The notes under the pieces are model-generated. The model searched no databases. It was not told the DNA's origin and was given only the letters and a program-made list of their open reading frames with translations. DNA of 64,000 nt, from positions 1-64,000 of the forward strand of contig DASXVE010000015.1 in the NCBI GenBank assembly GCA_036504445.1, given 5' to 3'. Within the stretch, counting starts at the first letter, position 1, and every line of letters starts with the position of its first letter. This DNA is from Candidatus Aquicultor sp. GTDB lineage: Bacteria; Actinomycetota; Aquicultoria; Aquicultorales; Aquicultoraceae. Below are positions 12,538 to 20,482 of this stretch, piece after piece. The translations under genes were made by a program, and so were the position numbers.

Positions 12538-12615
12538 GCGGTTTGCTGCAGTTGGAAAACAACGCGTTACAAGCTATTCTTATAGTGTTCGTATAGTAAG
12601 AGGGAGTGAAGCCAA

Positions 12616-13701
12616 ATATTTATTCTTGTTGCTATCATTGGATTAGGTCTCATAATCTTCATACATGAGTTCGGTCATTTTACCGCCGGTAAATTGATGG
12701 GACTTAAAGTAAGGGAATTCATGTTCGGCCTACCGGGCCCGCGAGTCCTCTCGCTCAAATGGGGTGAAACCGAGTACGGCGTAACGGCTCTGCCGTTCGG
12801 CGGCTACGTTAGGTTTGCGGGCGTCGAATCCGAGCTGCAAACAGAAGAGGATGAAGAGGACAGAAATACGCCCCCGGAGCGTAAGTATGATACCCAGCCG
12901 CGCTGGAAAAAAGCGATCATCATGGTTGCGGGACCGCTTATGAATATTATTCTGTGCGTGGTGCTGGTCGCTGTTATGCTTATGTTCCAGGGTATGCCGA
13001 AAGATCCAGCCTCTGGGGGGAGCAATATCCTCGGCCGGGTTTCGAAATCTTCGCCGGCGCAGAAAGTCGGTCTTAAGGAAGGCGATAGAGTTATCTCGGT
13101 GGACGGTAAGAAAGTAAAGACATGGAACGGCTTGGTAAGCGGTTTGAAGAGCAAACCCGGCAAACAGGTCACCATTGTAGTCGACCGCAACGGCAAAACG
13201 CTCACATTATTACCGACTCTCGATAAGAAAAACGGTAAAGGATTCTTAGGTATCAGCATAGGATTCAAGCAGCTCAATCCGTTTGCGGCGGCATGGCAAG
13301 GGCTGGTCACAACATGGCTTATCGTAAAATTTATGGTGGTCACGCTGTACACGGTAATTACGACGAATCTTGGGTTGTTGGTAAAAGACAGCGCCGGGCC
13401 GGTACGTATCGTGTCCGAATCCGCCAAAATCGCGCAGGAAAGTTTCTGGCAGTTCATATGGTTCATGGCGATAATCAGCGTGAATATCGGTATCGTCAAT
13501 CTGCTTCCGATTCCTCCGCTCGACGGCGGGCGGCTCGCAATTCTGGGCATCGAGGGCATAAAACGCGGCCCGGTGAACCAGAAGCTGGTTTATGCGGTCA
13601 ATGCCATCGGCATGGCGCTGTTACTCGCGCTCATGGTCTATTTCGTATATGCGGATATAGCTAAGATTGTAGCGGGGACACCGTTCCCGGGTGGTGGGTA
13701 A
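12616..13701 (+). CDS. rseP: Site-2 protease RseP (start codon non-canonical)
   Basis: A membrane zinc metalloprotease that cuts transmembrane anti-sigma factors. The zinc motif HEFGH is at 12664-12678, a PDZ domain lies at about residues 125-200 (KVGLKEGDRVISVDGKKV), and the C-terminal site NLLPIPPLDGGR gives the third ligand. The first canonical in-frame start, TTG 12694, lies after HEFGH and would destroy the enzyme. Upstream the frame is open only to a TGA at 12607. AGGGAG (12601-12606) points to AUA at 12616 as start, giving 361 residues and a normal N-terminal helix; ATT at 12622 is the alternative. A small indel or base error in the assembly could also explain it. Confidence 0.9.
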   Translation: MFILVAIIGLGLIIFIHEFGHFTAGKLMGLKVREFMFGLPGPRVLSLKWGETEYGVTALPFGGYVRFAGVESELQTEEDEEDRNTPPERKYDTQPRWKKAIIMVAGPLMNIILCVVLVAVMLMFQGMPKDPASGGSNILGRVSKSSPAQKVGLKEGDRVISVDGKKVKTWNGLVSGLKSKPGKQVTIVVDRNGKTLTLLPTLDKKNGKGFLGISIGFKQLNPFAAAWQGLVTTWLIVKFMVVTLYTVITTNLGLLVKDSAGPVRIVSESAKIAQESFWQFIWFMAIISVNIGIVNLLPIPPLDGGRLAILGIEGIKRGPVNQKLVYAVNAIGMALLLALMVYFVYADIAKIVAGTPFPGGG

Positions 13702-17553: not shown

Positions 17554-19911
17554 CTAAATCTTGCGGGAAAAGAGCCGCATTCCGTTCAAAATAACAAGGA
17601 TAGAGATACCGGTATCGGCGAAAACCGCCATCCACAATGTTGCCATACCCGCGACCGCGAGCACAATAAAGGCAAGCTTAACTGCGACCGAGGCGAAGAC
17701 GTTTTGCTTGATAATGCGGAGCGCCCGTCGGCTTAGCCGTATGACATACGGTATATTAATAAGCTCATCACCCATAAGGGCGATATCAGCGGTCTCAAGC
17801 GCCACGTCCGAGCCAATCGCACCCATCGCGATGCCCACGTCGGCCCGCGAGATCGCAGGTGCGTCGTTAACACCGTCGCCGACCATAACAACCCGGCCGT
17901 ATTGCTTCGAGATGGTCTCCAGTGCATTTACCTTATCCTCGGGCAGCAACTCTGCGCGAAACTCCGATATGCCTGCTTGTGCTGCAATTTCCTTCGCTGT
18001 TTCGGTGTTGTCGCCGGTCAGCATAACGATATGCTTTACGCCGGCATCGTGAAGCTTGTGAACCGCAAGACGGGCATCGTGTCTCAGCTTATCGGCAACC
18101 GCCATGATACCGAGCAGGCAATCCTCGGTGCCCAACATGAACACCGTTTTTCCTTCATGCTGCATCGCCGAAACGAGCGGGGTCGCAGCCGGGTCGGTAA
18201 TACTAAGTTCGCTGAACAGCCGGGGGTTTCCAATATAGTACGAGGTTGAATCGAGCTGGGCCTTGAGGCCTCGGCCGGGCATAGACTCAAAGCTTTGCGG
18301 TTCGGTGTATGTAATGTCGCGATCGCGAGCATATTCAACAACTGCATCGGCAAGCGGGTGGCCGGAGCGTGCCTCGATTGCGGCGATAACAGCGATAAGC
18401 TCGTCCTCGCTATAGCTGTTTAGCGAAACCACATCGGTAACGCTTAGGTGCCCGGAAGTGAGCGTGCCGGTTTTATCGAAAACTATCGCCGACACGGTCG
18501 CGGCGGTTTCAAGGTATGCGCCACCTTTAATGAGCACACCGTTGCGCGACGCGGCCCCGATTGCAGATGCGATTGAAACGGGCGTCGAGATAACCAGTGC
18601 GCACGGGCACGATATAACCAGCAAGACGAGCGAACGATAGAACCACGTCGAAAACGGCTGTCCGAAGAGCGGGGGAATAACCGCGACGGCGATGGCAATA
18701 CCGATCACGACCGGCGTGTAGTATATCGAAAACCGGTTAATGAATTGCTGGGCCGGTGCTTTTTTCGTTTGGGCATCTTCGATCAGTCGGATGATATGGG
18801 AAAGCGTCGAATCACTTGAGCGCCGCGTCGAGGCTATTTCAAGGTATCCTTCATTATTGAGCGTGCCGGCAAACACAGGGTCGCCTACATCTTTTACGAC
18901 GGGAAGCGACTCCCCCGTGACCGTAGACTGATTCACCGATGAACGCCCGAGCATAACAGTACCGTCTATAGGGATGCGTTCGCCCGGTTTAACAACAACG
19001 ATGTCGCCGACCTGCACCATGTCCGTAGGCACAACGCGCGTGGCGTCGCCGACCTTGACCGTTGCCTCGCTTGGGGCGATTTCAAGCAACCGGTGAATCG
19101 CATGACGGGTTTTATCCATCGTGAACGCCTCGAGCATGGTGCCGACGGCGTAGAGGAACATAACCGTTGCTGCTTCGAGCCACTGACCGAGGAAAAACGC
19201 GCCAATTACGGCGACCGTCATTAATACGTTCATATCGAATACAAAGGACCGGAGAGAAGAAACAGCGCTGTGTGCGGGCTTGTAGCCCGCTATAGCTGTT
19301 GCCGCAACAAGAAGAACTATACTAATGCCAAAGAGGCCGGTAAATAGCTGTAGGAGCGCACCTAGCGCGAGCGGAATCGCCGCCATTAAAACAGTGATCG
19401 CGCGTTTATCCGTAAGCCAGAACGACCTTTTCGGTTCGGATATTTTTCTAACACCCTCAAGTTCCGCCGTATAACCGCCGGCCCCTACGGCGTTTATTAT
19501 ATCTGTTGGAGAAATAACTTCATCACTAAACGATACGGTGAGTTTGCCGGTTTCAAATGTAACTTCGGCCGAGGACACGCCTTCGAGCCCTGCAACTTTG
19601 CGTTGCAGTTTTTGGGCACAGTCGGGTCAGTCGAGCCCTCGAAGCCGAAATACGGAAGTACGAATATTCTCAGGGGCGCCCACTTCATAGCCGAAATCCT
19701 CGACTTTAGAGAAGATTGCCTCACGCGAGTTTCTGCTGGCATCGTATTCTACGTGTAGGTTAGACGCGGTAAAGTTGACGGATGCGGCTCTTACGCCCGG
19801 CATTTTCCCAATCGCTTTTTCAACTTTAAGCGCGCAATCAGGGCAATCCAGCCCGCATATCGGGACGGTTTCTTCAATTATGTTTCCTGATTTAATGCTC
19901 TTCGTGTCCAT
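17554..19911 (-). CDS. Zn/Cd/Pb-type P1B ATPase with two HMA domains; in-frame TGA in the second
   Basis: Read through one TGA, the gene encodes about 785 residues. HMA1 has GLDCPDCALKVEKAI. HMA2 has the same motif but TGA replaces its first cysteine: GLD-stop-PDCAQKLQRK (TGA at 19627-19629, residue 95). After that come the transmembrane region with the CPC ion site (SCPCALVIST), the phosphorylation site DKTGTLT, HP locus SGHPLADAV and hinge GDGVNDAPA. CPC and the adjacent SmtB-like repressor fit Zn/Cd/Pb export. Possible starts are ATG 19911 (used here) and GTG 19929, which overlaps the repressor stop. If the TGA is not decoded, translation could restart near 19578 to give a 674-residue pump with most of HMA2 missing. 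Confidence 0.88.
19590..19608 (-). promoter_or_regulatory. SECIS-like stem-loop downstream of the in-frame TGA
   Basis: In the mRNA, CTGCAAC and GTTGCAG form a perfect 7-bp stem closed by the loop GCAAA. The stem begins 18 bases after the TGA, and the loop's first base is G, 26 bases after the TGA. Bacterial SECIS elements are known to place a small apical loop with a G in its first two positions about 16-37 bases after UGA. Geometry fits; a chance hairpin inside coding sequence cannot be excluded without conservation data. Confidence 0.55.
19627..19629 (-). other. Candidate selenocysteine codon (TGA) in HMA2
   Basis: The codon lies between GLD and PDC, exactly at the first metal-binding cysteine. 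HMA1 of the same protein keeps TGC at the equivalent place. TGC/TGT to TGA is a single-base change, so nonsense mutation is the rival explanation. The reading frame on both sides is intact and family-like, which argues against decay. Confidence 0.55.
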
Positions 19912-19925
19912 ATCTATCACTTCAA

Positions 19926-20324
19926 TCACGTAAGGTTTTCAAGGATCGGCATTGATGCGGGCTCGTGAAACTCTTCCTGGACGTGGTGCATGCATTCGGT
20001 AAGCAGCCGGATAATATGAGCATCGTCGAGAGAGTAATACACCATCTTGGATGCTTTTCTGCGTTTAACGAGCCGCGCATCTTTGAGTTTGCGAAGCTGG
20101 TGAGAGACGGCCGATTGGCTGGCACCGACAACTTCGGCGATTTCACAGACGCATAGTTCGCCTTGTAGAAGCGAAAACACGATCTTAACGCGTGTCGGGT
20201 CGGAGAGAACCTTAAATGTATCCGCCAGCCTATCTATCGGCCGGTCACCTATAAGCGAACTCTTAATACGCTCTACTTTCCGCACATCGATAACTGATTC
20301 GGCACAAAGGTCATCAAACGCCAT
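19926..20324 (-). CDS. ArsR/SmtB-family metal-sensing repressor
   Basis: A 132-residue winged-helix repressor. The helix-turn-helix is ASQSAVSHQLRKLKDARLV. Two metal-site signatures are visible: ELCVCEIAE, the alpha3 cysteine pair of CadC/SmtB, and DAH-x10-H-x2-E in the last helix, the alpha5 zinc site of SmtB/CzrA. Zinc, cadmium or lead would release it from DNA. ATG 20324 follows GGAGG. It is the first gene of the ATPase-ferredoxin operon and presumably represses it from the palindrome at 20341-20362. Confidence 0.9.
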   Translation of the reverse strand: MAFDDLCAESVIDVRKVERIKSSLIGDRPIDRLADTFKVLSDPTRVKIVFSLLQGELCVCEIAEVVGASQSAVSHQLRKLKDARLVKRRKASKMVYYSLDDAHIIRLLTECMHHVQEEFHEPASMPILENLT

Positions 20325-20340
20325 AGCAACCTCCATCTTA

Positions 20341-20362
20341 TATGAACATGTGTTCAGATATA
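20341..20362. promoter_or_regulatory. SmtB/CzrA-type operator palindrome
   Basis: TATGAACA-TG-TGTTCAGATA closely matches the ArsR/SmtB operator core TGAACA-N2-TGTTCA. It is centred about 27 bases before the repressor start and adjoins an AT-rich stretch (20360-20378) that could hold the -10. Metal-dependent derepression of the whole operon is expected. Confidence 0.75.
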
Positions 20363-20482
20363 ATAATATAATATATAGTATCGGATGAAAAGACCAACAC
20401 ACGTAGCGAAAAAGATTATCCAACCGAAAGAAAATCGCAGTGCGGCACAGCAATGTCGTAAAGTTAGCTCACTATTGGCTGG

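Follow-up and report, generated by a model that had tools for sequence, protein, structure and literature searches.

A predicted selenocysteine codon in the second HMA domain of a ZntA-like P1B ATPase from Candidatus Aquicultor

The window, the whole 64,000-nucleotide stretch of Candidatus Aquicultor sp. DNA that was analyzed, carries a P1B-type heavy-metal ATPase gene with a single in-frame TGA. This TGA is very probably a selenocysteine (Sec) codon. The inferred decoding of UGA as Sec in this ATPase is strongly supported by the genomic evidence: the genome encodes a full Sec system, the TGA falls on a conserved metal-ligand cysteine, and it is followed by a rule-compliant hairpin that Cys orthologues lack. 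The frame is otherwise intact, the surrounding domain is undecayed, and the same genome encodes a CopA-type paralogue with a Sec codon of its own.

The ATPase gene and its in-frame TGA

The locus comprises the following features:

19926–20453, minus strand: ArsR/SmtB-family metalloregulator, longest ORF (NF033788, 99.9 bits, above cut-off)
17554–19929, minus strand: P1B-type heavy-metal ATPase gene (ZntA/CadA-like, CPC motif), 792 codons including the stop, GTG start, UGA at codon 101
19684–19866, minus strand: HMA domain 1, GLDCPDC (Cys); PF00403, E = 9.4e-13, above cut-off
19471–19653, minus strand: HMA domain 2, GLDUPDC (putative Sec), one TGA inside; PF00403, E = 6.9e-11, above cut-off
19627–19629, minus strand: TGA codon, putative Sec, in place of the first Cys of the HMA2 CxxC (GLD-U-PDC)
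19590–19608, minus strand: SECIS-like hairpin, perfect 7-bp stem CTGCAAC/GTTGCAG, 5-nt loop GCAAA with G in first position; the hairpin by itself folds at −9.4 kcal/mol

Between 19929 and 17554, the ATPase frame contains just one stop, the TGA at 19629–19627. Behind it the frame stays open for 691 codons, compared with at most 263 behind any other TGA that splits a frame in the window. The read-through product would contain two N-terminal HMA domains, an E1-E2 core, the CPC transmembrane motif, DKTGT and an intact hydrolase domain; standard annotation would cut it into two ORFs. The product scores above the cut-offs of the P1B heavy-metal ATPase model TIGR01525 (633 bits) and of the cadmium family TIGR01512 (534 bits), and below those of PRK11033, the Zn/Cd/Hg/Pb ATPase (659 bits, cut-off 1005), and P_type_ZntA (568 bits, cut-off 1240). 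By these curated models it is a heavy-metal/cadmium-family ATPase, ZntA-like and not a ZntA equivalog. Judged from the orthologues compared, tandem HMA domains come and go within this ATPase family and a truncated N-terminus may be tolerated; four orthologues (L026–L029, from genomes G010, G008, G009 and G001) have lost HMA1 or HMA2.

The ArsR/SmtB ORF lies directly upstream and overlaps the ATPase start by 4 nt, although its true start is probably further in than that of the longest ORF. Regulators of this family are the usual partners of Cd/Zn efflux pumps.

Elsewhere in the window (12600–13701, plus strand), an RseP-like M50 protease has its HEFGH motif upstream of the first ATG, GTG or TTG, close behind an in-frame TGA (SQIFILVAIIGLGLIIFIHEFGHF). 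The position of this motif before the first usual start points to a rare start codon such as ATT or ATA, or to an odd 5' end.

The hairpin and the Cys orthologues

The stem begins 18 nt after the TGA, with its arms at 19608–19602 and 19596–19590 and its loop at 19601–19597. An earlier note on this DNA had described exactly this hairpin, together with the TGA in place of the first HMA2 cysteine, the GLDCPDC motif of HMA1 and a frame and family similarity that continue on both sides. All of these observations were reproduced: the TGA aligns to a cysteine in homologues, and similarity extends across it in both directions.

Rules for bacterial SECIS elements (bSECIS) specify a loop of 3–9 nt, a stem of 4–16 bp, a G in the first two loop positions, a UGA spacing of 16–37 nt and a minimum free energy of at most −7.5 kcal/mol (PMC13188914). 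The window hairpin complies throughout, with 7 bp, 5 nt, G in first position, 25 nt from TGA to loop and −9.4 kcal/mol. As these rules are loose, the chance rate of a perfect stem of 7 bp or more under the same rules was computed. When the same peptide was recoded synonymously 20,000 times, such a Watson-Crick stem, in the bSECIS position and with the loop G, arose 97 times (0.5%). Window-gene codons gave 22 of 3,679 (0.6%), with the real element counted in, and window-gene Cys codons 1 of 42, a list that includes the second Cys of HMA2, so that the match may be the real element. For the whole 57-nt segment, the folding energy departed modestly from expectation (z = −1.7, with 5.6% of values as low) and was therefore left out of the evidence; the signal is carried by stem length and position, not by total folding energy. 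An Rfam search returned no match to a SECIS model, a result of little weight given how widely bacterial SECIS sequences vary. The loop starts with GC, compared with the commoner GG or GU, and the hairpin is unlike those of the CopA-type and selD genes described below.

The Cys orthologues are 43–63% identical to the window ATPase (N-terminal query, both HMA domains present). All of those that have HMA2 carry TGC or TGT at the codon homologous to the TGA, and under the same rules their best stem is 1–4 bp in both the HMA2 and the HMA1 copies. At the base of the 3' arm, the window gene encodes Val (GTT), whereas the family's Cys orthologues encode Ile (ATA, ATC or ATT), with the sole exception of the most distant one (L067), which also has Val. 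A stem found only with the TGA, and never where the codon is Cys, fits a lineage-specific Cys-to-Sec change; the two were apparently acquired as a pair, stem along with codon, on the branch of the window gene.

Conservation of UGA and hairpin across species, a mark of bacterial selenoproteins, was not found here, the family orthologues being Cys forms without the stem. The earlier note had named this pattern as evidence against its proposal. To that extent the orthologues speak against Sec, while the confinement of the stem to the TGA-bearing gene is what a lineage-specific conversion predicts. Lineage-specific Sec is common among selenoproteins. A TGA in a single genome thus lowers the support for Sec and does not exclude it. 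Among 397 genomes sampled from the phylum, none had a further in-frame match to the GLDUPDC DNA pattern. Relatives of the window ATPase retrieved by scanning a genome collection were Cys forms only, and the genomes searched included no other member of the genus. One further match in the 397-genome scan, in G310 (L076), was out of frame and was attributed to chance.

Orthologue dS was saturated, which made dN/dS uninformative; branch lengths on a topology fixed from the ATPase core were used instead. The branch of the window gene takes 11.1% of the tree length in HMA2 and 11.6% in the ATPase core. On this comparison, HMA2 is free of decay and evolving no faster than the core, although a very recent mutation would go unseen.

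Such a mutation is the first alternative to be weighed. A recent nonsense change of TGC or TGT to TGA would leave a 100-aa HMA protein and, separately, an ATPase that begins at GTG 19578 or later and that may still pump metal despite lacking an intact second HMA. The single-HMA orthologues indicate that the N-terminal domains are dispensable over evolutionary time, and the GTG start, 17 codons behind the TGA, is open; it is, however, preceded by GAAGG at a distance of only one base, a poor spacing for a ribosome-binding site. A random nonsense change would also have had to strike exactly a CxxC ligand, in front of a compliant 7-bp stem missing from Cys orthologues, in a genome that decodes UGA as Sec, and no further stops, frameshifts or excess HMA2 divergence accompany it. 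We therefore regard this explanation as improbable.

Selenocysteine decoding and a second predicted Sec pump in the genome

A host for the predicted selenoprotein must supply SelA, SelB, SelD and tRNA-Sec, and a search of the genome, as the earlier note had proposed, recovered the full set in one cluster on contig C25. There, tRNA-Sec (UCA anticodon) stands beside selB (400 bits, cut-off 242), followed by selA (616 bits, cut-off 268) and selD (358 bits, cut-off 125). Upstream of this selD-selA-selB-selC cluster are two further genes, one for a HypB-like GTPase and one that is HD-domain-like. The selD gene (L017, 11017–10025, minus strand; relatives L078–L085) itself has an in-frame TGA, encoding GUAAK, a trait shared by every selD found, in nine genomes altogether (the window genome and eight others of the order). 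With SelD a Sec protein in all nine, UGA decoding is in use in the family. Of 12 genomes of the order, 10 have a tRNA-Sec scoring at least 72 bits, and Sec decoding is accordingly an old, working trait of the group.

A second, CopA-like P1B ATPase with one TGA was found in the same genome (L048 on contig C29, 12646–13152 of the contig) and in nine relatives (L049–L055, L058 and L059). It reads GMTUASC in HMA1 and GMTCASC, or LMTCASC in some, in HMA2, and 10 of the 11 family genomes keep the TGA in HMA1. Behind this TGA, codons +7 to +9 are identical across the ten genomes and codons +5, +6 and +10 nearly so, compared with up to four different codons at each of the same positions in the Cys-type HMA2. 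Ten independent assemblies and synonymous sites frozen across the hairpin exclude sequencing error for the CopA-type TGA. These genes show that the lineage places a predicted Sec at the first position of the CxxC in HMA domains. Among 247 sampled genomes of the phylum, the GMTU pattern matched nine family members and had no true form outside the family; a match in G070 (L086) had no ATPase frame and was set aside as chance.

A single-base sequencing or assembly error, with TGC as the true codon of an ordinary Cys ATPase, would account for a one-base difference in one genome, yet it is highly improbable given a 7-bp stem that falls in the right place by chance in about 0.5% of cases and a like TGA occurring independently in ten genomes in the CopA-type paralogue. 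The Sec machinery, the hairpin and the family-wide CopA-type ATPase together support the original proposal of a Sec-using metal ATPase.

Proposed function and relation to known systems

In P1B ATPases, the HMA domains regulate turnover as well as binding the metal that is transported. In the mechanism we propose for the selenocysteine reading, the mRNA of the arsR-ATPase operon would be translated with SelB, carrying Sec-tRNA-Sec, bound to the hairpin 18 nt behind the UGA, so that the CxxC of the second N-terminal HMA domain receives Sec as its first ligand. Translation would then yield the entire metal efflux ATPase of 791 aa, in which one metal-binding domain is Cys/Cys and the other Sec/Cys. 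A selenolate is softer than a thiolate and deprotonated at neutral pH; soft metals (Cd, Hg, Pb, Cu(I)) may thus be bound more tightly or handed over faster, and HMA2 could serve for high-affinity sensing or loading. Both the metal preference and the benefit of Sec are what we infer for this ATPase.

E1-E2 cation ATPases bearing Sec in a UxxC motif already figure among the predicted selenoproteins of the GOS survey (PMC2398784) and of reviews (PMC9312934, PMC13188914), the reviews giving ABB15669.1 as an example; the window ATPase therefore joins a known, though little-studied, kind of selenoprotein and does not found a new one. ABB15669.1, compared here by description and not by sequence, is likewise a P1B heavy-metal ATPase (TIGR01525/COG2217) with Sec first in a CxxC-type motif and likewise only predicted. 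The nearest relatives found for the window gene are all Cys forms, which makes the Sec of the window ATPase look like an independent gain.

The CopA-type enzyme, like the window ATPase, is an HMA-bearing P1B ATPase in which U takes the place of the first cysteine of a CxxC and the TGA is followed by a hairpin. Its Sec lies in HMA1 (GMTUASC) and not in HMA2, it has copper-type features (CPCSL/CPCAL), its TGA is family-wide, and its hairpin is a different one, CGCCG-CGTGGAAA-CGGCG. In MerP-like HMA selenoproteins and the UxxU metal-binding (seleno)protein family NF041115, too, the metal ligand of an HMA fold is Sec. The window HMA2 scores 69 bits against NF041115, below its cut-off of 95, and is a UxxC domain fused to an ATPase, whereas NF041115 is a free-standing UxxU domain. 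With the ZntA/CadA Zn/Cd/Pb ATPases (PRK11033, TIGR01512) the window ATPase shares domain order, CPC motif and an adjacent ArsR/SmtB regulator; it differs in its two tandem HMA domains, one with predicted Sec for Cys. What appears new is the HMA2 position in a ZntA-type pump, a gain that looks both independent and young, and the occurrence of two predicted Sec pumps within a single genome.

We consider it rather likely that this bacterial family has repeatedly recruited Sec as a metal ligand in the HMA domains of efflux pumps, with an old, family-wide event in the CopA-type HMA1 and a recent, independent one in the ZntA-type HMA2, where the SECIS stem arose with the Sec codon. If so, this would point to selection for metal binding by selenolate and not for redox catalysis. 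Most selenoproteins of known function are redox enzymes, and Sec as a metal ligand of efflux pumps would widen the range of Sec uses. The window gene has the look of a recent switch from Cys to Sec, with the codon change and the gain of the SECIS hairpin visible side by side. Two pumps in one genome, one of which has close Cys orthologues, would allow Sec and Cys to be compared cleanly, in a natural setting, for metal affinity and transport.
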